Below, piece by piece: positions 1,736-12,886 of a DNA stretch of 47,941 bases. Under the pieces are notes generated by a model. That model made no database searches. It was not told where the DNA came from and saw only the letters and a program-made list of their open reading frames with translations. A program made the translations under genes and the position numbers. Each line of letters begins with the position of its first letter. Position 1 is the first letter of the stretch. Source of the stretch: Roseburia sp. (GTDB lineage Bacteria > Bacillota > Clostridia > Lachnospirales > Lachnospiraceae); the NCBI GenBank assembly GCA_023667765.1, contig JAMOZS010000016.1, positions 1 to 47,941 on the forward strand, in the 5' to 3' direction.

Positions 1736-3049
1736 TTATTTCCTATAATATAAAATATCCTGCGCCAATAGCTCCAGTATGTTCTCCTGATAAGCCGACC
1801 TCCCAGTCTGTCTGACACACTCTGCCGTCTCACACAGCAGAGGATGCTCCACACCTCGCAGCTTCTTCATCCTCCATTCCTCTATCTCCTCTTCTGACAA
1901 CGCATCCTGATAATCCTTTACATCCATTCTCCAGATATGGATGTTCCGGGGATACTTTCTCCAAAGTCGGTCTGCGATACCAATCCCCTCCGGATCCATA
2001 TCCCCACTATAATAAATCTTTGTTCCGTTTTCACAAAGCAGGTGAATCAGCCGTTGCGCCGCATAGCTAAGCTGACCGGAGGTACACAGCAAAGTAACCG
2101 GCATTTCCCGACAACATTTCACCAAATAAGAAAACACCATCTCATTCTCCACCACATAAGCGCACTCCCTTTCCGCCCATATGGCTTCCGCACCGGTCAG
2201 ATTGGCAAGGGACAATATTCCGGGTTCCTGCGCCGCACAAAAGGCTTCCAGAATCCCGCTTTCCACCCCCTCCTTACGCATATGAATACGGTAAAACGCT
2301 ACCGTACTTGCAATCTCATCCGTGATAATCCCCGCATCCCGATATGCCTCATGCACTCCTGCAGCATCCCTTGGAAATTCTCTGCCGTCGGCAAAGCAAA
2401 GAACATGTAGCAAAAGCACGGCAGCATTTTGTCCTCTGTCAAAATAATGCGGATTTCCAGACACCTTTGCCGCCAAAACTGCTAACGGAATCCCCGCCTC
2501 TCCTGCGCCGGCTGTCGAAAGATACCCTTGACACACATTGCGCACCATAGTTTCTGCCAGTCTCTCGCTGTTCTTCCAAAGTCCCATCACCGTGCCATAA
2601 CCATATTGCTTATCTGCTTCCATACCCTGAATCCAGGCAAGAGCCGCAACAGCTTCTTTTGTTTCTCCTTTTTCCTCCAACCATGCAGCTATACGGCTCC
2701 AGAATTCCTCTTTCTTCCGTTCTTCCAAAGCCTTCTTTTCCTGATTGGTAACAAGCTCTTCCTCAAAATAATATTCCAGCAGCCTCTCTAATGGCACGCC
2801 CCCAAACCTGGTCTCCTTTAAAGCCTTCTCAAAATCAAAAAACGGAAAAACGATATCCTCATCCCAGTATTTTCTGCTCAGGAAATGTCCTATAGCGTGT
2901 TTCTCTTTCTCAGTGGCAGCTCGGATTTTTATGTTCCCCGCCGCTTTCCCATAGCTTTTCCACTTTTTGCGCATTTCCTGGAAGCATCGGTCAAATCCCT
3001 GCTCTTTCTTAAAGTAGGCTACGCACTCCCTCAACTCGCTACTGCTCAT
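1736..3049 (-). CDS. jetD: Wadjet type II JetD (TIGR02679/DUF2399), Toprim nuclease subunit
   Basis: This is the fourth gene of the cassette. The C-terminal half carries a Toprim fold: a glutamate in VVENEMVFSYL (about residues 300-303) and the DxD motif in YYSGDMDPEG (D350, D352), followed by GIGIADRLW, as in topoisomerase VI A-type domains. In Wadjet systems JetD is the nuclease that cuts circular plasmid DNA after the SMC complex has extruded it. I choose ATG 3049 because AAAGGA lies 6 bases upstream and the start MSSSELRE fits; ATG 3064 is also in frame. The gene overlaps the end of jetC by 11 bases, implying translational coupling. All catalytic residues I can identify are present, so it looks functional. 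Confidence 0.85.
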   Translation of the reverse strand: MSSSELRECVAYFKKEQGFDRCFQEMRKKWKSYGKAAGNIKIRAATEKEKHAIGHFLSRKYWDEDIVFPFFDFEKALKETRFGGVPLERLLEYYFEEELVTNQEKKALEERKKEEFWSRIAAWLEEKGETKEAVAALAWIQGMEADKQYGYGTVMGLWKNSERLAETMVRNVCQGYLSTAGAGEAGIPLAVLAAKVSGNPHYFDRGQNAAVLLLHVLCFADGREFPRDAAGVHEAYRDAGIITDEIASTVAFYRIHMRKEGVESGILEAFCAAQEPGILSLANLTGAEAIWAERECAYVVENEMVFSYLVKCCREMPVTLLCTSGQLSYAAQRLIHLLCENGTKIYYSGDMDPEGIGIADRLWRKYPRNIHIWRMDVKDYQDALSEEEIEEWRMKKLRGVEHPLLCETAECVRQTGRSAYQENILELLAQDILYYRK

Positions 3050-6000
3050 CCAATATCCTTTCATGCCCGTTCCAAGTATAGTGAATCACCGTGATTACCT
3101 GTGAATTCAGCGGGCGCAACAGTTCCGAAATACGCAGCGCCGGAACCGTATCAAAGCAGCCCCATAGTGCCTGCGAATTCATAATATAATCAAAATCCAT
3201 ATCTTCCACCAGCTTGAACATGCTGCTGATATTTTTGTCATCCACTCCCGCAAAGGCCTCGTCCAGCGCTATCATCCGAGGATGGTCTCGATTCTCCGCT
3301 TTCTGGTACTGGGCATTTACCGCAGCGAACAGCGGTACATACATAGCCATAGCTTTCTCACCGCCGCTGAAACGATTAAAGGCGGAATTCGTAAGGTTCT
3401 TCTTTCCCTCAAGATTCCTGTAATAAGACATCTGGAACTCAAACCACTTCCTGTAGTCCAATGCGTCCCGAACCAAATCCATATAATTAATACTTTCCCC
3501 TGCTTCTTCTGCGATTTGCTTCTGGGTCTGAATCTTGCTGCGAAAATGCGCCGCCACCTTTTCGATATCGTCACTGTTCAGAAGTGAATAGTCTCGCAGC
3601 AATATTTTCTCCAACTCCTTTATATCCAGTTCCTGTTCGTTTTCTGCCGTCCTGGGTTTCCAGTCCAGAGAAAAATACAGTCCCATGGATGTCTCCAGCT
3701 TCATCAGGGCCGACATATCTTGTACCCACTTTCTGCTCTCGGCAATACGGTCAGTCAGCTGCTGGCTGATGGTCTTTGATAAAATATCCTCAAAAAGTTC
3801 TCTGTCTTTTTGCTGAATCAACAGCGCCGTCTCATCAATAGTAGTATTCAGCATCTGATAAAACTCTTCCAAATACAGCTTTTTCCCGTTCCATACGGAA
3901 ATAATGCGCAGCCGCTTCCGAAGGGCCCCCGATTCTGCCTCCGCTTCCTCAAAGCACTCTTCAATCGCCGTTCCGTAACTTACAAGGCTGCCGTTATGCG
4001 CTGCGTACACCTGATACAAACCTGTTGTCATGGTGCCCACATCCCTGCCCTCATCGCCCTCCCGCATACGCAGCAAAGCTTCTTTCGCACAGGCTTCCGG
4101 ATTTCCCGCATCCTTCTCAAGAACAAGCCTCAGTTCCAACTCCTCCTCAAAATATCTTTGGCAGAGATTCTCTCTGGCAGTCTTTTGTACATAATCTTCT
4201 CTCAGTTTCCCCTCTTCCTCTAAAATGTGCTTTAACTGGTCTTCTATCACAGCCAGCCTTTTCCCAATGGAGGAAATCTGTTCCCTAATCTCTTCCCTCT
4301 CTTTTTTTAACAGCTCCCTGCGCTGCGCCTTTTCTTTCACCTCCGGCCGATTCAAATATTCCTCATACTGTCTGATTTTCAGCTCCAACTCCGCAATTTT
4401 CCCAAGGGCATCCTTTTTGTCAAGAGCCGCATCATCCATATTGCTTTCTTCCCTCTCTATCAGCTCCTCCTGTGTCCGGATATCGGTTTCCGCCTTTTCA
4501 AGCCGGATGAGCAGTTTGTAAAGTCTTTGCAGATTTTGTTGGTATGCGTCAGCCGCATCCAACACCTCCTCATATTCCTCCGTCGTCCTTCCATAGGGAA
4601 AGATTTTGCAGGCGGCAAGCATTTCCTGATAGCTTTCCTTTTCCTTCTGCCGATATAGGTCAAGCTTCGTTTCTATCACGCGGTAGTTTCTTTCCTCCTG
4701 CTCACAGGCAAGACGGAGCTTCCCCTCCGTTTCCAAAGCGGTATCAATCCTTTCCGTAGCAAAGGACCGGCTGTACTCTGTGTCCAGCGTTGTAATCCGA
4801 TACGCCAAATGCTCCTTTTCCCCGTCAAGAACCTGCAAATCAGCCTGTATCTGTTCCATCTCTTCGGACAGCTGCCGCAGTCTCCTCTCCTTTTTCTGCG
4901 CCCTGGCCAGCACTCCCACATACTCCGCTTCTTCCTTCCAATCCGCTCTGCCGGAAAGGATTCCCTGCTCAAAATATCTTTCCTTTTCCATTCGGACACA
5001 GGCGTCACTCTCCTGACCCTTTTCGGAAATATGGCTCAGAATATTTTCAACAGCCTCCCGAATCCCTTTTTCCAGCGTCTCGTTTACTTTCAGTCCATAG
5101 AATCCACAATTTCCCCTTTCCTGAGGTTTTATGACACAGCCCACAAATTCCGGGAAATCTTCCCTGATTCGCCTGAAATCCTCTTTTGCAACCACCAGTG
5201 CATCCAGCAGTCCCATATCCGCCAGTTGAGATTCGATTCCGGCGCATTCCTCCGGTTCCAGTCCTTCTGCAAACTCTACCGTCCTGAAAAAAGGAACCGC
5301 TTTCACTCCCATCTCCTCCAATCTCTTTCGAGATGCAGCTACCGCCTCCCTCCGCTCCGGTTCTAAATCTTCCTGCATCTGCACCTCGGTACGCTGGGCC
5401 TCCAGTTGTGCCAGTACCCCCTTTTGCTCCTCCAGCTTTTTCTCACATTCCCACATATTAGAAGAAAGCTGTTCCTTGTATTGCTGATAAACATTCTGCA
5501 AAATCTGGTTGATTTTTCTGCCGTCTGCGGCGCTTTGATACTCCTGTAGCTGCTTCTCTGCCTGGAGCAGCAGCTCTTCCGACAATTTCCATTCCCCATT
5601 TTGGCTGTTTGTGGTATAAAAATCCTGGATACAGCCCTCCCTGGAAAGCTCTGTTTCACGCTCCGCCCGGGCTAATGCCGACCTCTTTTCCTCCCAGTCC
5701 CGCTTACGTCCCTCTGCCTCTTCCGAAATCTCATCCAGTTGTTTTTGGTCCCTTCCATGCCTTTCTATACAATCCTTTCCCGCCGCCACTGACTTCCGAT
5801 ATTTCTGCAGTTCCTCCATCAGATTATCTGCTCTCTGTACGTCTCGGGTTCCGGTCAATTCCAACACTCCGAAATGACCCTCCCAACGCAAAATCTCCTG
5901 ACCGCTCTTTAATTCCTCCGTCTCCTCTGCCAGGTCAGACCGGCAGACTTCTCTCTCCCCCTGCAGGATATGTATTTTCCTGTCACATCCCCGAATGCTT

Positions 6001-7088
6001 TCCCTGCTTTTCTGTATTCGCTCTTCTATTCTTTCTTTTCTTTCCTGCTCCTCTTTTTTGTCCAGATGCGCCTTGTCCAGTTTCGCATCCATCTCCTCCA
6101 TATCCGTATCCAATAAGCTTTCCAACTCCGCGGCTGCCAGTCTGTCACGATTTCTTAACGCCGCCTCCGCCTCCTGCTTCTCTCCTTGTTCCTGAGTGAG
6201 ACTCTCTTTATCCAGCATACTTTTGTCCATCTGTGCCTGAGCCTGAAGAGCCTCCTTTTTTGCCGCCAGATATGCCTGCCCTTTCTTCCCCAGCATATAC
6301 CGATTGTACCTCATGTACTCTTTCCGTATGACTGTCACATCTGCCATGGCCCGCTTCAGTTGGTCTAAATTTCCCTGAATGCCATCCATCTTCTCCATGG
6401 CGTCCACCATAGGGCGCAAATCCTCGTCCGTCAGGGTCTGTAAGGAATCGTTAAGAATCTCATATACTTTCGAGGGTTTGAATTCCTTGGACAGCTTTGG
6501 CGCCCGCACTTTGACTAACAGCCTGATGAACTGCTCATATTGCTCCGCCCTGCTAAAGCCAAAGAGATACTTATTTACCAGCTCCTTATATTCTCTGGGC
6601 ACATCTGTAAAAGGCGCCTCCTCTCCCAGAACCTTTTTCAGTTCTCCTTTCTCCAGGGGGATTTTATTGCTTCCCACCTCCCTGTACAGCCAGATATCGC
6701 CTCCTATCCTTCTTCCGTCAAGGATAATAAATCCCCAGAAATCCATGGGTTTCCCTTTTCTGGCCCGCTGCCCGATGCCTATGGTGCGGTATTCTCCGGT
6801 ATTCTTTTTCCGAAATTCCAGATACAGATATCCTGTGGCTTCCTCTTTTCCCTCTTCCCCCAGAAAGTAATATTCCATTCTTCGGTCGCTGGAACCAAAG
6901 GGGTCCAACCGGCTTGGGGTACGGTCTCCGTCCAGAATAAAAGGGATAAAACTCTGTGTAGTAATGGATTTACCGGAACCATTCTGCCCTCTCAGCAGCA
7001 GCTTCCCTTCCTCAAAAGCAAACTCCTCTTCGTCATAAAGCCAGAAATTGACAAAGCCAATGCGATTCATCATCCATCGTTCATTCAT
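3039..7088 (-). CDS. jetC: Wadjet type II JetC (TIGR02680), SMC-like ATPase
   Basis: The protein has 1349 residues, the usual length for TIGR02680. Walker A is RGQNGSGKS (residues 33-41). Long Glu/Lys/Gln/Arg-rich coiled coil fills roughly 250-1000. Near the C-terminus come the ABC signature FSGGEKAMAMY and Walker B MIALDEAFAGVDD. This is the head-coil-hinge-coil-head plan of an SMC/MukB-like motor. In the family it forms the loop-extruding core with JetA (kleisin) and JetB (KITE). Its ATG overlaps the jetB stop by 4 bases (ATGA). No frameshift or premature stop is seen over 4 kb, which argues for selection. Confidence 0.9.
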   Translation of the reverse strand: MNERWMMNRIGFVNFWLYDEEEFAFEEGKLLLRGQNGSGKSITTQSFIPFILDGDRTPSRLDPFGSSDRRMEYYFLGEEGKEEATGYLYLEFRKKNTGEYRTIGIGQRARKGKPMDFWGFIILDGRRIGGDIWLYREVGSNKIPLEKGELKKVLGEEAPFTDVPREYKELVNKYLFGFSRAEQYEQFIRLLVKVRAPKLSKEFKPSKVYEILNDSLQTLTDEDLRPMVDAMEKMDGIQGNLDQLKRAMADVTVIRKEYMRYNRYMLGKKGQAYLAAKKEALQAQAQMDKSMLDKESLTQEQGEKQEAEAALRNRDRLAAAELESLLDTDMEEMDAKLDKAHLDKKEEQERKERIEERIQKSRESIRGCDRKIHILQGEREVCRSDLAEETEELKSGQEILRWEGHFGVLELTGTRDVQRADNLMEELQKYRKSVAAGKDCIERHGRDQKQLDEISEEAEGRKRDWEEKRSALARAERETELSREGCIQDFYTTNSQNGEWKLSEELLLQAEKQLQEYQSAADGRKINQILQNVYQQYKEQLSSNMWECEKKLEEQKGVLAQLEAQRTEVQMQEDLEPERREAVAASRKRLEEMGVKAVPFFRTVEFAEGLEPEECAGIESQLADMGLLDALVVAKEDFRRIREDFPEFVGCVIKPQERGNCGFYGLKVNETLEKGIREAVENILSHISEKGQESDACVRMEKERYFEQGILSGRADWKEEAEYVGVLARAQKKERRLRQLSEEMEQIQADLQVLDGEKEHLAYRITTLDTEYSRSFATERIDTALETEGKLRLACEQEERNYRVIETKLDLYRQKEKESYQEMLAACKIFPYGRTTEEYEEVLDAADAYQQNLQRLYKLLIRLEKAETDIRTQEELIEREESNMDDAALDKKDALGKIAELELKIRQYEEYLNRPEVKEKAQRRELLKKEREEIREQISSIGKRLAVIEDQLKHILEEEGKLREDYVQKTARENLCQRYFEEELELRLVLEKDAGNPEACAKEALLRMREGDEGRDVGTMTTGLYQVYAAHNGSLVSYGTAIEECFEEAEAESGALRKRLRIISVWNGKKLYLEEFYQMLNTTIDETALLIQQKDRELFEDILSKTISQQLTDRIAESRKWVQDMSALMKLETSMGLYFSLDWKPRTAENEQELDIKELEKILLRDYSLLNSDDIEKVAAHFRSKIQTQKQIAEEAGESINYMDLVRDALDYRKWFEFQMSYYRNLEGKKNLTNSAFNRFSGGEKAMAMYVPLFAAVNAQYQKAENRDHPRMIALDEAFAGVDDKNISSMFKLVEDMDFDYIMNSQALWGCFDTVPALRISELLRPLNSQVITVIHYTWNGHERILDEQ

Positions 7089-8230
7089 TGTATCTGTTTC
7101 TCCTCATAATCCCCAGGATAATAGCCGGACAGTTTTCCTACAATGGGAAACAGGCTTATCCGCCCTTCCTCTCTCCGAAACATCATCCATGCCTCCATAT
7201 ACTCCTTAATCTCCTCCACCGCCTTCCCAGGTTCCTTTTCACGAAAGATGGCGCCCCACGCATCCTTCCAGCGGCGGTGACAGTTCCGAATCAGTTCATC
7301 CAGCGCTTCCTCCGACACATAAACACATTCGTCCATCTGTCTGACCCAGACTCCGGATTCTATCCGACTCCTTATCTCGGCGCACACTAACAGCACTGCT
7401 TCCGGCAGTATGGCATCCCGGGGATGCACCTTTCCGTAACAGTCATCTTCCTCCAGCATCCAGAATGCGGCGTTTTTGTGCAGGTCGAGACGGCCTCCTA
7501 TATTCTCCTCCAGATTCTTTACTACCCATTGCCTCTGGTTTTTCAGGTATAAAGAATCTGCGTCTTCCATATTGCTCCAGTACATCATCGGACAAGTCAC
7601 CAACTGCCTGTAGACCCTGTTAATCCTCGTCCTACCTCTCTCAGAATCAATCTCCTGAAGAGCCGTTCTCTCAAAATCCTCCACACTGTGGAATCCGGAA
7701 ATATCCTGTGAAAAGCTGGTAGCAAAATATTTTGAATGTCCTGTATTCTCATAGAGCACCTCGTTACCGGACTCCTGTCCGAAACCTTCACTGTTGCCCT
7801 CATACACCTTGAGCATATTATTCTTTTCCATATACTGTAACACTCTCACCAAAGATTTCCGTTGGGAAAAAGATGTCCAGTCTATTTCTATGCTCTCTTT
7901 CAACCGGGTCTCCACATAACTAATCAGTTCCGATAACAGGAACTGTTCCTGCTCCTCCTTGTCCTCCAGAAAAATCAGAACTGCACAAAGAAAACAATAA
8001 TCCCTGATTTCCGTAAACTCCTGTATCCCCATAAAACTTTCTGCATGAACCGGTATCTTTTCCAATTTTAACAGACGTTCTGTATTAATCAGCTTCCACC
8101 CCAGCATCTCCCTGACAAACCGTTGAAACAGGGGAAGCTCGTGTTTTATTTTATAATATTCATCTTTTTGGGTATCCTTACAAATCCATATGTTTTCCAA
8201 CAGCGACCTGACCCTGTTCAACTTTTGCAT
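7085..8230 (-). CDS. jetB: Wadjet type II JetB (TIGR02678/DUF2398), KITE-like subunit
   Basis: The 381-residue protein lies between jetA and jetC in the order conserved for this cassette. DUF2398 proteins are predicted winged-helix KITE subunits that bridge kleisin and SMC heads. Recognisable parts are the N-terminal LNRVRSLLENIWI helix, a central YRQLVTCPMMYWSNMEDADS segment and a C-terminal region rich in acidic residues. ATG 8230 is preferred because AGGAAGG precedes it closely; ATG 8257 in frame lacks a ribosome site. It is separated from jetA by about 50 bases and overlaps jetC by 4. No enzyme motif is expected or seen. Confidence 0.8.
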   Translation of the reverse strand: MQKLNRVRSLLENIWICKDTQKDEYYKIKHELPLFQRFVREMLGWKLINTERLLKLEKIPVHAESFMGIQEFTEIRDYCFLCAVLIFLEDKEEQEQFLLSELISYVETRLKESIEIDWTSFSQRKSLVRVLQYMEKNNMLKVYEGNSEGFGQESGNEVLYENTGHSKYFATSFSQDISGFHSVEDFERTALQEIDSERGRTRINRVYRQLVTCPMMYWSNMEDADSLYLKNQRQWVVKNLEENIGGRLDLHKNAAFWMLEEDDCYGKVHPRDAILPEAVLLVCAEIRSRIESGVWVRQMDECVYVSEEALDELIRNCHRRWKDAWGAIFREKEPGKAVEEIKEYMEAWMMFRREEGRISLFPIVGKLSGYYPGDYEEKQIQ

Positions 8231-8284
8231 ACCGCCTTCCTGTATAACTGTATCCATTCAAAATAGGAAAATCCCGCTTCTTCC

Positions 8285-9766
8285 TTATTGGCGCTTCGCA
8301 CCAAATTCCAACACATATGCCGGCATGGTTAAGTCCCCGTCCTGACAGTGCAGTACACAGGTCCCTGATTTCCTGATTAGACGAAATTCCTGACCATATT
8401 CCGTCCTTCCGATTTTGTCAGAATTCATATTTGCCTGAGATATCCACTGTAGGAAAGTCATCCTCACTGTATCGGGAAGCACATCTTCAATACCCGCCAG
8501 TTCCAGCCTTCCGTCTCTGATATAGCGCATCACTAATTCTTTCTCGCTATCCAACTGTCTCAAGTGGGCCATTCTCTGTTGTAGCTTTTCCATGGTTTTA
8601 TCTGCAAATCCCGATTGTTTACGCCTTTCCCGATACGCCTTTGTATGGGGTTTCAATGCGTACGCAAAGGGAGCCTCTTCATAGACGCTGCTGTTTATAC
8701 TGTCCGTATCCCGAATTGCATTTTCCTTCAGATGCCGGATATTCTGTATGCCAAAAACATGGGCGGAAATCCTGTGCGCCTCGTCCAAAGTCCCCGCCTC
8801 CAAAAAGAGCTCCAGAAACTTGCGATAGTCATCCTTTCTGCTCATTCCCCAATTTTGCATCTGCAGAATTAATGCTGCATTCTGTATGATATTCCTAATA
8901 ATGTCATTGGTAATAATCAATATTTTATGACTTTCGCACTCATGTTCCGGGCTATCCAAAAACCAGCTTTTCAGGGAATTCCATTTCCCCCAGACATTTT
9001 CCCGAATACCTTTCTCCATGTTCGCCTGTAACTCTGACAATGCACGGGGAATCTCCAGTTCACTCTTTACCACCTTTTCCAGCAGCTGTCCTTCAATCTG
9101 CCCGCTCTTCTGTGTCAACAGTCTTGCAATATATTTGGAATGCTTCTGCATCTCCTTAATAAAGTCATTCAGATACTGAATGAACCGGTCCTTATGTAAA
9201 ATAAATTCCACGGATTTCATCAGCCTGTCCGATTTTCCCGAATAAAACTCCCTCAGATAATCCTGATAGTTTCGGTTCAACCGTTTGAAATCTTCCTGTA
9301 GATTACTCCACCACTCATTAATCTCCTTATAACTTTTTCCCTCAATCTCTTCTGTTTCATCCAGACTGTGCTCCAGCCGCACAAACAGATTCGTGGACAG
9401 ATTCCCTGATTCCACAAAGATATTCTCCAGCCGCACAGTCAGCCTTTCTATTTCCACCGCATATTCCGACATCACATACCTGTATTGCTTATTCTTATAA
9501 TCCGCTATGGTATATACCTTTCCCGGATCCTGAATTGGCGTCAGATTCTTCCAACGAACCAGAGCATCCAAATCCTGCTTCAACTGTTCCATGCTATAAT
9601 CCACAAATGCAGGATTCCTGTGCAGCAGCTCCAGCACATCCTCCTTATACAGTTGAAAGCGCATCTTCTCATATTCCTGATAAAAGATGCGCATAATCGT
9701 CCTATATTGCGGTGCATTTGGCACTGATAAGTATGAAGTCTCGTTGATTACCCCTAAATACTGCAT
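8285..9766 (-). CDS. jetA: Wadjet type II JetA (TIGR02677/DUF2397), kleisin-like subunit
   Basis: This is the first gene of the cassette, 493 residues from ATG 9766, close to the roughly 490-500 of TIGR02677. The N-terminal LSVPNAPQYRTIMRIFYQEY and a helix-rich middle fit the DUF2397 pattern. The C-terminus (DTVRMTFLQWISQANM then EFRLIRK) looks like a winged helix. In Wadjet, JetA links the two SMC heads. GGAGGA lies 10 bases before ATG 9766; a TTG at 9784 with AGGAAA before it is an alternative adding six residues. A TTGACG-N17-TATAAT promoter lies about 160 bases upstream, giving a long leader. Confidence 0.8.
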   Translation of the reverse strand: MQYLGVINETSYLSVPNAPQYRTIMRIFYQEYEKMRFQLYKEDVLELLHRNPAFVDYSMEQLKQDLDALVRWKNLTPIQDPGKVYTIADYKNKQYRYVMSEYAVEIERLTVRLENIFVESGNLSTNLFVRLEHSLDETEEIEGKSYKEINEWWSNLQEDFKRLNRNYQDYLREFYSGKSDRLMKSVEFILHKDRFIQYLNDFIKEMQKHSKYIARLLTQKSGQIEGQLLEKVVKSELEIPRALSELQANMEKGIRENVWGKWNSLKSWFLDSPEHECESHKILIITNDIIRNIIQNAALILQMQNWGMSRKDDYRKFLELFLEAGTLDEAHRISAHVFGIQNIRHLKENAIRDTDSINSSVYEEAPFAYALKPHTKAYRERRKQSGFADKTMEKLQQRMAHLRQLDSEKELVMRYIRDGRLELAGIEDVLPDTVRMTFLQWISQANMNSDKIGRTEYGQEFRLIRKSGTCVLHCQDGDLTMPAYVLEFGAKRQ

Positions 9767-9924
9767 GGCATATACATCCTCCAATGCTTTCCTAATCCTA
9801 CAAATACATTCCGATATACTTTACAATTATCCTGCCTCCCAATATTCCCTGTTCCTATATTTGTCTCAACAAGATACAGGCTTGAAAAACACTTCAAATT
9901 CTCAATCTGATTCTATCCGGTTAT

Positions 9925-9953
9925 ATTATACTGACATAAAGTTCCTGCGTCAA
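9925..9953 (-). promoter_or_regulatory. Sigma-A promoter of the Wadjet operon
   Basis: On the minus strand TTGACG (9953-9948), a 17-base spacer and a perfect TATAAT (9930-9925). Transcription would begin near 9918, leaving a 5' leader of about 150 bases before jetA. The degenerate CRISPR repeat ends 14 bases upstream of the -35 box. Confidence 0.75.
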
Positions 9954-9967
9954 ATAATTATTGATTT

Positions 9968-10065
9968 ATCTGCGGATGTAGAAACTTAATTTTCTTTCTT
10001 AGCGATAGTTACTATAGTTGGGCAGCAAAATCTACAATAGTAGAAATTTATTTTTCTTTCTTAGC
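9968..10065 (-). CRISPR. Relic type V-A (Cas12a-type) mini-array: repeat, 26-nt spacer, degenerate repeat
   Basis: Read on the minus strand, 10065-10030 is a 36-nt repeat starting GCTAAGAAAG and ending AATTTCTACTATTGTAGAT. That ending is the conserved Cas12a crRNA handle, with stem TCTAC/GTAGA around loop TATT. The spacer is 26 nt (10029-10004, starting TTTGCTGCCC). A second 36-nt repeat (10003-9968) matches at 29 of 36 positions. Its changes cluster in the loop and 3' stem (TCTAC faces GCAGA, one mispair), as in a decayed terminal repeat. The AT-rich stretch 10066-10141 would be the leader. No cas gene is in the window. The unit starts 76 bases after the antitoxin-like gene and ends just before the Wadjet promoter. 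Confidence 0.8.
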
Positions 10066-10141
10066 TCGGGGAGCTCGGCAGCGCTTAATGCCAAAAATTG
10101 ATTGGATTTCTTATTTCTTGCGTTTTGTTTCCCGATATATA

Positions 10142-12450: not shown

Positions 12451-12494
12451 ACAAAAAGATAGGACGGTCACCCTATTTTGTACGGGTAACCGTC
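12451..12494 (-). terminator. Terminator of the ABC transporter operon
   Basis: On the minus strand GACGGTTACCC pairs with GGGTGACCGTC (11 bp, one mismatch, loop of 10) and is followed within a few bases by ATCTTTTTGT. It overlaps the last codons of the upstream gene. Confidence 0.6.
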
Positions 12495-12886
12495 ACCTCA
12501 GCGCCATCCACAAGTTCACCTGTTGAACTTACAACCACTCTGTCCCGAAAACCGATTCCGGAAACCACTTCCAGCAAGTCCTCCCTTTCCACTCCTGTCA
12601 CCAGCTGCACTTCCCGCACAAAGTCCCGTTCCTCTCCGTTTTTGATATCCTTATACAATACAAATACCGGCTGCTGCGTAAGCTCTCTGGATATGACCAT
12701 CCGGCTTGTGGTGCCCGTCTGGGTTTCCCCGTTTTCATCCACATATTCCATGGGAATCAACGCTTCCCCAAGATACTCCGCAGTAACCTGCGGCAGATTC
12801 CTCTCATGAATGGAACGGGCCGTAAAGGTTAATACCAACATGGCCATATAGAATACAACGCTTATCATCAGCCAGTGTTTCTTCAT
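12473..12886 (-). CDS. Small membrane-anchored protein with adaptor (MFP) C-terminal-like domain
   Basis: The 137-residue protein has one N-terminal membrane segment (LMISVVFYMAMLVLTFTA) and an outer part of about 110 residues. Its end, GFRDRVVVSSTGELVDGAEVTVTRT, resembles the last beta-barrel strands of periplasmic adaptor (HlyD/RND-type) proteins, which use a G-D-xVV-x(4)-L-x-DG-xxV pattern. The lipoyl and hairpin domains are absent, so it is not a complete adaptor. GGAGGG precedes the ATG. It is last in the operon with two sugar-type permeases. I do not recognise a named family; a role in assembling or gating the transporter is a guess. Confidence 0.5.
   Translation of the reverse strand: MKKHWLMISVVFYMAMLVLTFTARSIHERNLPQVTAEYLGEALIPMEYVDENGETQTGTTSRMVISRELTQQPVFVLYKDIKNGEERDFVREVQLVTGVEREDLLEVVSGIGFRDRVVVSSTGELVDGAEVTVTRTK

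Follow-up and report, generated by a model that had tools for sequence, protein, structure and literature searches.

What does a pair of type V-A CRISPR repeats mean when it stands alone directly before another defence operon? In the window, that is, the whole stretch of 47,941 nucleotides analysed here, such a unit occupies positions 9968-10065 of the minus strand and is flanked by a PIN-domain gene upstream and by a type II Wadjet operon downstream on the same strand. An earlier note, made from the sequence alone, had reported two 36-nt minus-strand copies separated by 26 nt, and both the arrangement and the coordinates proved to be exact. The first copy, R1 (GCTAAGAAAGAAAAATAAATTTCTACTATTGTAGAT, 10065-10030), is an intact type V-A repeat with a functional-looking Cas12a handle. 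It is followed by the 26-nt spacer (10029-10004) and by a degenerate repeat, R2 (GCTAAGAAAGAAAATTAAGTTTCTACATCCGCAGAT, 10003-9968), in which the handle is broken and the 5' part is preserved, with 18 of its first 20 bases retained. Compared in register, R1 and R2 are identical at 29 of 36 positions, as the note had counted.

When we folded the 19-nt handle of R1, it formed a 5-bp stem with a 4-nt loop at -4.8 kcal/mol, a value that none of 200 shuffled sequences equalled, and the fold of the whole 36-nt R1 was equalled by 10 of 200 shuffles. The handle of R2 gave no fold (0 kcal/mol). Both results agree with the earlier description of a Cas12a handle with a stem in the first copy and of a broken loop and mispaired stem in the second. 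Hence the 36-nt repeat with handle and stem that characterizes a type V-A array is present in R1 and not in R2, and a spacer of type V-A length (26 nt) lies between the two direct repeats. When all 36-mers of the window, on both strands, were compared with R1, R2 alone exceeded 21/36 and the next best reached 21/36; since the pair matches at 29/36, the likeness of R1 and R2 is not due to chance. With up to three mismatches allowed, the handle was found at one site in the window, where 0.05 were expected, and at one site in the 2.79-Mb assembly of the same genome (G000). No third repeat was detected within 500 nt of the unit, the best candidate there reaching 19/36 and being equalled by 284 of 300 shuffles.

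We then scanned two conserved parts of the repeat across genome contigs, in a set that may omit near relatives of the window's genome. The scan returned four stretches: two in JAMPEY010000003.1 (G525), one in JAMPEB010000012.1 (G043), and one in a Pedobacter contig, a single match of the repeat pattern that was taken as chance. G525, another species of the genus, carries a complete type V-A locus with cas12a, cas4, cas1, cas2 and an array. Its cas12a encodes 1244 aa and matches the NCBIfam Cas12a model with 1267.5 bits, and its array contains 38 exact repeats that are identical to R1 at 34 of 36 positions. The comparison with type V-A repeats proposed in the earlier note therefore came out favourably: R1 agrees over its full length, beyond the handle, with the repeat of a Cas12a locus that is complete and belongs to this genus. 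Repeat-to-repeat gaps in this array measure 25-27 nt in 35 of 37 cases, the remaining two being interrupted, and the claim that a 26-nt spacer fits type V-A is thus sustained. When the genus was searched with the window locus, 16 of 138 genomes matched, and among the matches listed the repeat part was present only in G000, G525 and G043. The presence of an R1-like repeat in the complete G525 locus, together with this genus search, indicates that R1 belongs to a genuine type V-A repeat family in this genus. Handle-like matches were also found in 9 of 99 related genomes, the window's own included, with L003, L004, L005 and L011 lying outside the inspected set; among them are a true array in G006 and the single repeat of G043. 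Three handle-like single matches (L002, L007 and L010), with two mismatches each, had no repeat structure around them and were discarded.

The earlier note had called for a search of the whole genome for cas12a. With the G525 Cas12a protein as query, three of 138 genus genomes matched (G525, G498 and G006), and no Cas12a was found in the window's own assembly (101 contigs, 93.74% complete), an absence that rests on this query. The cas12a gene that a functional type V-A system requires was thus not found in G000 as assembled. A Pfam REC1 search gave no match in this genome either, in a run whose controls matched nowhere. Genome-wide Cas12a and Cas1 searches gave no match on the window's contig, and Pfam detected no cas family among the 26 distinct ORFs scanned, the window having 117 ORFs of at least 80 aa. 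The claim that the 47.9 kb hold no cas gene therefore stands for these 26 ORFs and for Cas12a and Cas1 on the contig, which amounts to a partial test. G000 does contain a type I-C system (cas3, cas5c, cas8c, cas7c, cas4 and cas1c) with an array of 55 exact repeats, the sequence of which is unlike R1.

The Wadjet operon directly downstream of the unit had been overlooked in the earlier note. Based on Pfam and PADLOC, it is a complete type II operon (1736-9784, minus strand), a neighbour separate from the unit, in which jetA, jetB, jetC and jetD follow in order: JetA (9784-8285; PADLOC JetA2), JetB (8257-7085; JetB2), JetC (7088-3039; JetC2) and JetD (3064-1736; JetD2), all on the minus strand, with Pfam matches to DUF2397, DUF2398, SbcC Walker B and DUF3323/DUF2399. 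JetA matches occurred in 19 of 138 genus genomes, the window's own included. Between R2 and jetA, with a 14-bp gap from R2, lies a promoter-like TTGACG-17-TATAAT (9925-9953, minus strand), which agrees with the consensus at 11 of 12 positions. It is the probable promoter of the jet operon, a call that is only suggestive because seven such sites occur in the region against 5.2 expected.

On the other side of the unit, the gene of a PIN-domain protein (10797-10321, minus strand; PIN_3 in Pfam) is followed by a small ORF (10318-10142, minus strand) with no Pfam match, and the two may form a toxin-antitoxin-like pair. The GC content of the PIN gene is 0.36, that of the small ORF 0.31 and that of the DNA around the unit 0.34, compared with 0.47 for the window, and DNA resembling the small ORF is present in other genomes of the genus. 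Beyond these lie conserved genes (12283-11127) that match 'Gate' in Pfam just below the cut-off and that we take to be SpmA/SpmB. In four relatives, no DNA similarity to the window was found in about 10 kb past these conserved genes, and since similarity stops there in all four, the stretch is variable. Abutting R1 is one half, the left, of a palindromic intergenic element (10064-10085, minus strand), which ends at the first bases of the repeat; a second copy with both halves present is located at G000:C54:14396-14417, so that the element occurs at two places in the genome. The edge between half palindrome and R1 is a breakpoint-like junction. The window flanks showed no similarity beyond chance to the leader or the trailer of the G525 locus. 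A 47-nt match in G517 (84%) that spans the end of R2 consists of AT-rich sequence and was also taken as chance.

Two related genomes suggest how such loci may end. G043 (JAMPEB010000012.1), a third species, has the order RlaP-family gene, one repeat and YunG gene, and the same site in G525 has the RlaP-family gene, a lone repeat, the V-A locus and YunG, with 8.4 kb (an N gap included) from the lone repeat to the last repeat. The flanks of the two genomes agree at 98% over 1077 bp on the RlaP side, repeat included, and at 95% over 496 bp on the YunG side, and the single repeat of G043 (L046, G043:C3, 2500-2535) is identical to the G525 array repeat at 35 of 36 positions, with one change in the loop. 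We infer for G043 a loss, rather than a gain, of nearly the whole V-A locus. The event was no clean repeat-to-repeat deletion, since 50 bp between the repeat and the YunG side are unrelated to G525. In G006, a stretch at the array end (L102 8802-8837), 22 nt past the last intact repeat, still agrees with the repeat at 14 of its first 20 bases but no longer has a handle. The agreement over these 20 bases was equalled by 38 of 2000 shuffles, and that over the full 36 nt by 313 of 2000. The stretch is possibly a degenerate last repeat with a pattern like that of R2. The G525 array has no degenerate terminal repeat.

Based on these observations, we consider the unit to be probably what is left of a type V-A CRISPR-Cas locus formerly present in this region, which is variable and rich in defence genes, and of the two readings offered in the earlier note, the remains of a lost V-A locus are the better supported. 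Through a deletion, the locus would have lost cas12a together with its adaptation genes, its leader and all but the end of its array, so that only the last array unit remained, namely the intact R1, the spacer and R2 as the decayed terminal repeat. We infer both that a full locus occupied precisely this site and the sequence in which the events took place, and the loss would be the same kind of event as in G043. The half palindrome at R1 fits a breakpoint there, and a decay of the last repeat from its 3' side, as in R2, fits the array end of G006. The identity of R1 to the repeat of a complete locus at 34 of 36 positions, the lack of Cas12a in G000, where a single handle and a type I-C system were found, and the one repeat that stands in place of a locus in G043 all argue for the relic, as do the GC content around the unit, which is near that of the G525 V-A locus (0.33) and far from that of the window, and a spacer without a target at the neighbouring promoters. 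Against it, no further V-A piece lies by the unit, be it leader or trailer likeness, a third repeat or a cas family among the 26 ORFs; the G525 array ends without a degenerate repeat; the G043 event was not a clean deletion between repeats; the own assembly is 93.74% complete; and the spacer matches its own genome over an unusual length (contig C35; 12-nt seed, TTTC PAM). Nor was a full V-A locus found at the window site in another genome, in a searched set that may omit near relatives. A further point against the relic is that the handle of R1 is undecayed though the effector seems gone, so that the loss would need to be recent or R1 still useful.

The spacer itself had no exact 20-nt match in viral contigs. 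A 17-nt match in nine contigs of the viral, phage and plasmid searches (18/26 in eight of them and 20/26 in one) was taken as chance, and the comparison with phages and plasmids gave nothing convincing, with two phages at E 3 and one plasmid at E 9. Thus a mobile-element protospacer with a TTTV PAM, as expected of a type V-A array, was not found in these searches. Most spacers have no known match, so the missing protospacer is no argument against a V-A array. The self match lies at G000:C35:74463-74492 (L123 1501-1530), with a 12-nt seed beside a TTTC PAM, 15 of the first 16 positions and 17 of 26 overall; 0.014 such matches were expected for 12 nt, and 0.07 for the initial query of 11 nt. It is located about 670 bp inside an ORF of 623 aa without a Pfam match, away from the ORF start. 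We regard it as a weak lead, and that a true self-target here could explain the loss of cas12a is a guess. The adjoining ORF on C35 resembles, by eye, a polysaccharide flippase.

The position of the unit raises the question of whether it regulates its neighbour. The available text of PMC12737573 describes CreR, for type V-A, as a Cas12a-guided regulator of its own operon, and the window unit resembles that CreR in being an ectopic sense-strand repeat shortly before a promoter-like site of a defence operon. Under a CreR/CreTA/CrePA-like explanation, a crRNA-like guide would repress Wadjet or another gene, and Wadjet would come on when Cas12a fails. The order along the strand, with the unit followed after 14 bp by the promoter-like site and then by jetA, would suit this, and so would the layout, which is similar to that of the single repeats upstream of cas12a in G006 and G525, themselves looking like CreR. 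Repeat degeneration is a feature of creA genes in the part of PMC9458426 available to us; divergence there is greater in the first repeat, here in the second. The self match on C35 could likewise be counted in favour, with its 15/16 and an expectation of 0.014, but it lies deep inside its ORF and not at the start. This reading was examined with a seed test, in which a contiguous seed and the matches in the first 16 nt beside a Cas12a-type PAM were scored against shuffled guides. The lone-repeat guide of G006 was picked out against the cas12a upstream region with a 9-nt seed and a TTTG PAM (2 of 1000 shuffles equal), and that of G525, a weaker case, with a 5-nt seed, 10/16 and a TTCC PAM (9 of 1000). 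In contrast, neither the jet promoter region (965 of 1000 shuffles equal) nor the PIN upstream region (897 of 1000) contained a seed match to the window spacer; against the whole window 55 of 100 shuffles were equal, and 226 of 500 against the jet side with another score and region. No link appeared to the cas12a upstream regions of G525 (974 of 1000) and G006 (418 of 1000) or to the G498 contig (462 of 1000). Since the test picks out the G006 and G525 guides and not the window spacer, it gives no support for the window unit as such a regulator. Neither the promoter seed match with a PAM nor the physical link to the required cas genes that marks CreR, CreTA and CrePA was found here, the former at the jet and PIN upstream regions. 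In addition, G000 lacks Cas12a, and no intact handle occurred at 29 JetA loci of the family (two of them with less than 15 bp of upstream DNA), by an exact handle pattern that would miss broken-stem handles and in a family search that matched 36 of 397 genomes. Neither the handle nor CTAAGAAAG occurred at 14 JetA loci of the genus (of 18 further genus matches), and a conserved association between V-A units and jetA was rejected on these 29 and 14 loci. We thus regard a regulator of this kind as quite unlikely. Its specific form, in which a guide before Wadjet silences the plasmid defence while Cas12a works and frees Wadjet at loss or inhibition of Cas12a, so that Wadjet would be permanently on here with Cas12a lost, is very unlikely; it would have to use a site invisible to the seed test, or a target elsewhere. 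If correct, this form would mean a coupling of two defence systems, with one guarding the other, but the evidence leans against it.

Alternatively, the unit could be an orphan that still supplies a working crRNA to a Cas12a, the gene for which would lie in the missing 6% of the genome or arrive on mobile DNA. The handle of R1 is intact and folds, a member of the genus has Cas12a with a nearly identical repeat, and the assembly is only 93.74% complete; R1 could in principle be processed into one crRNA, were Cas12a to enter the cell. However, the query that matches 3 of 138 genus genomes finds no Cas12a in G000, and the spacer has neither an exact 20-nt viral match nor a convincing phage or plasmid match. 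We therefore hold this explanation to be unlikely, and the earlier note's second reading, a crRNA source for a Cas12a encoded elsewhere, loses ground accordingly. An RNA anti-CRISPR (Racr), a repeat mimic on a mobile element that jams Cas12a, would be in line with the type V-A Racrs reported in the available part of PMC10651486 and with the AT-rich PIN gene, small ORF and intergenic stretch. The unit is a repeat, a spacer and a second repeat, and not the solitary repeat in a virus or plasmid that defines a Racr; its contig holds core-type genes (UvrC, FtsH-like and CTP synthase), the 26 Pfam-scanned ORFs include no phage or integrase family, and the repeat pattern had no match in viral contigs, all of which makes a Racr highly improbable. 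A chance resemblance or a dispersed repeat could appeal to there being only two copies, one of them degenerate. The excess of the pair over the next best 36-mer, the 34/36 identity to a true V-A repeat and the single place of the sequence in its genome, by which the earlier note's reading as something other than a dispersed repeat holds, leave this a negligible chance, and the genus search revealed no copies scattered through genomes without a history of Cas12a.

The preferred reading, the stump of a lost V-A locus, can be placed among known systems. With the G525 V-A locus the unit shares the repeat over 36 nt, the handle and the spacer length, and it differs in having no cas genes found and two repeats in place of 38, and in standing at another chromosomal site. 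As a short array without cas genes and with a degenerate second repeat, the unit also resembles the isolated CRISPR arrays and locus stumps that are familiar as a general kind. It differs from these in having two repeats only and in being of type V-A beside a resident I-C system. It departs from CreR in lacking a promoter seed match and a Cas12a and in preceding Wadjet rather than a cas operon, and from the CreR-like lone repeats of G006 and G525 in having two repeats where these have one each. The neighbouring JetABCD operon is a complete member of Wadjet type II, and sequence gives no functional tie between it and the unit. No description of a V-A unit at a Wadjet operon was found by title in the open-licence literature. 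As a V-A relic, the unit is of a kind already known in general, and this instance is new. It offers a clear example of what remains after a Cas12a immune system is lost, and since the genus also contains an extant relative of that system as well as another locus that was lost, the steps of decay become comparable. The analysis also suggests that two-repeat V-A stumps and Cas12a-guided regulators can be told apart by a simple seed test.

Two further observations concern the other arrays. In G006, the stretch before cas12a, L102 (G006:C1:705000-720000) 4172-4390, carries the lone V-A repeat, with cas12a starting at 4391, and the site of its guide (TAAAGCTGT, TTTG PAM) overlaps, by eye, the -35 box of cas12a (TTTACA-17-TATAAT); from this arrangement, the lone repeat is a probable V-A CreR. 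In G000, the 54 spacers of the type I-C array gave only short matches to the window or the G525 locus, which were taken as chance. This array (L132 11327-14979, G000:C101) contains near-duplicate spacers, some with small differences, for example those at 12463/13473, at 12530/13336/13541 and at 12867/13135.
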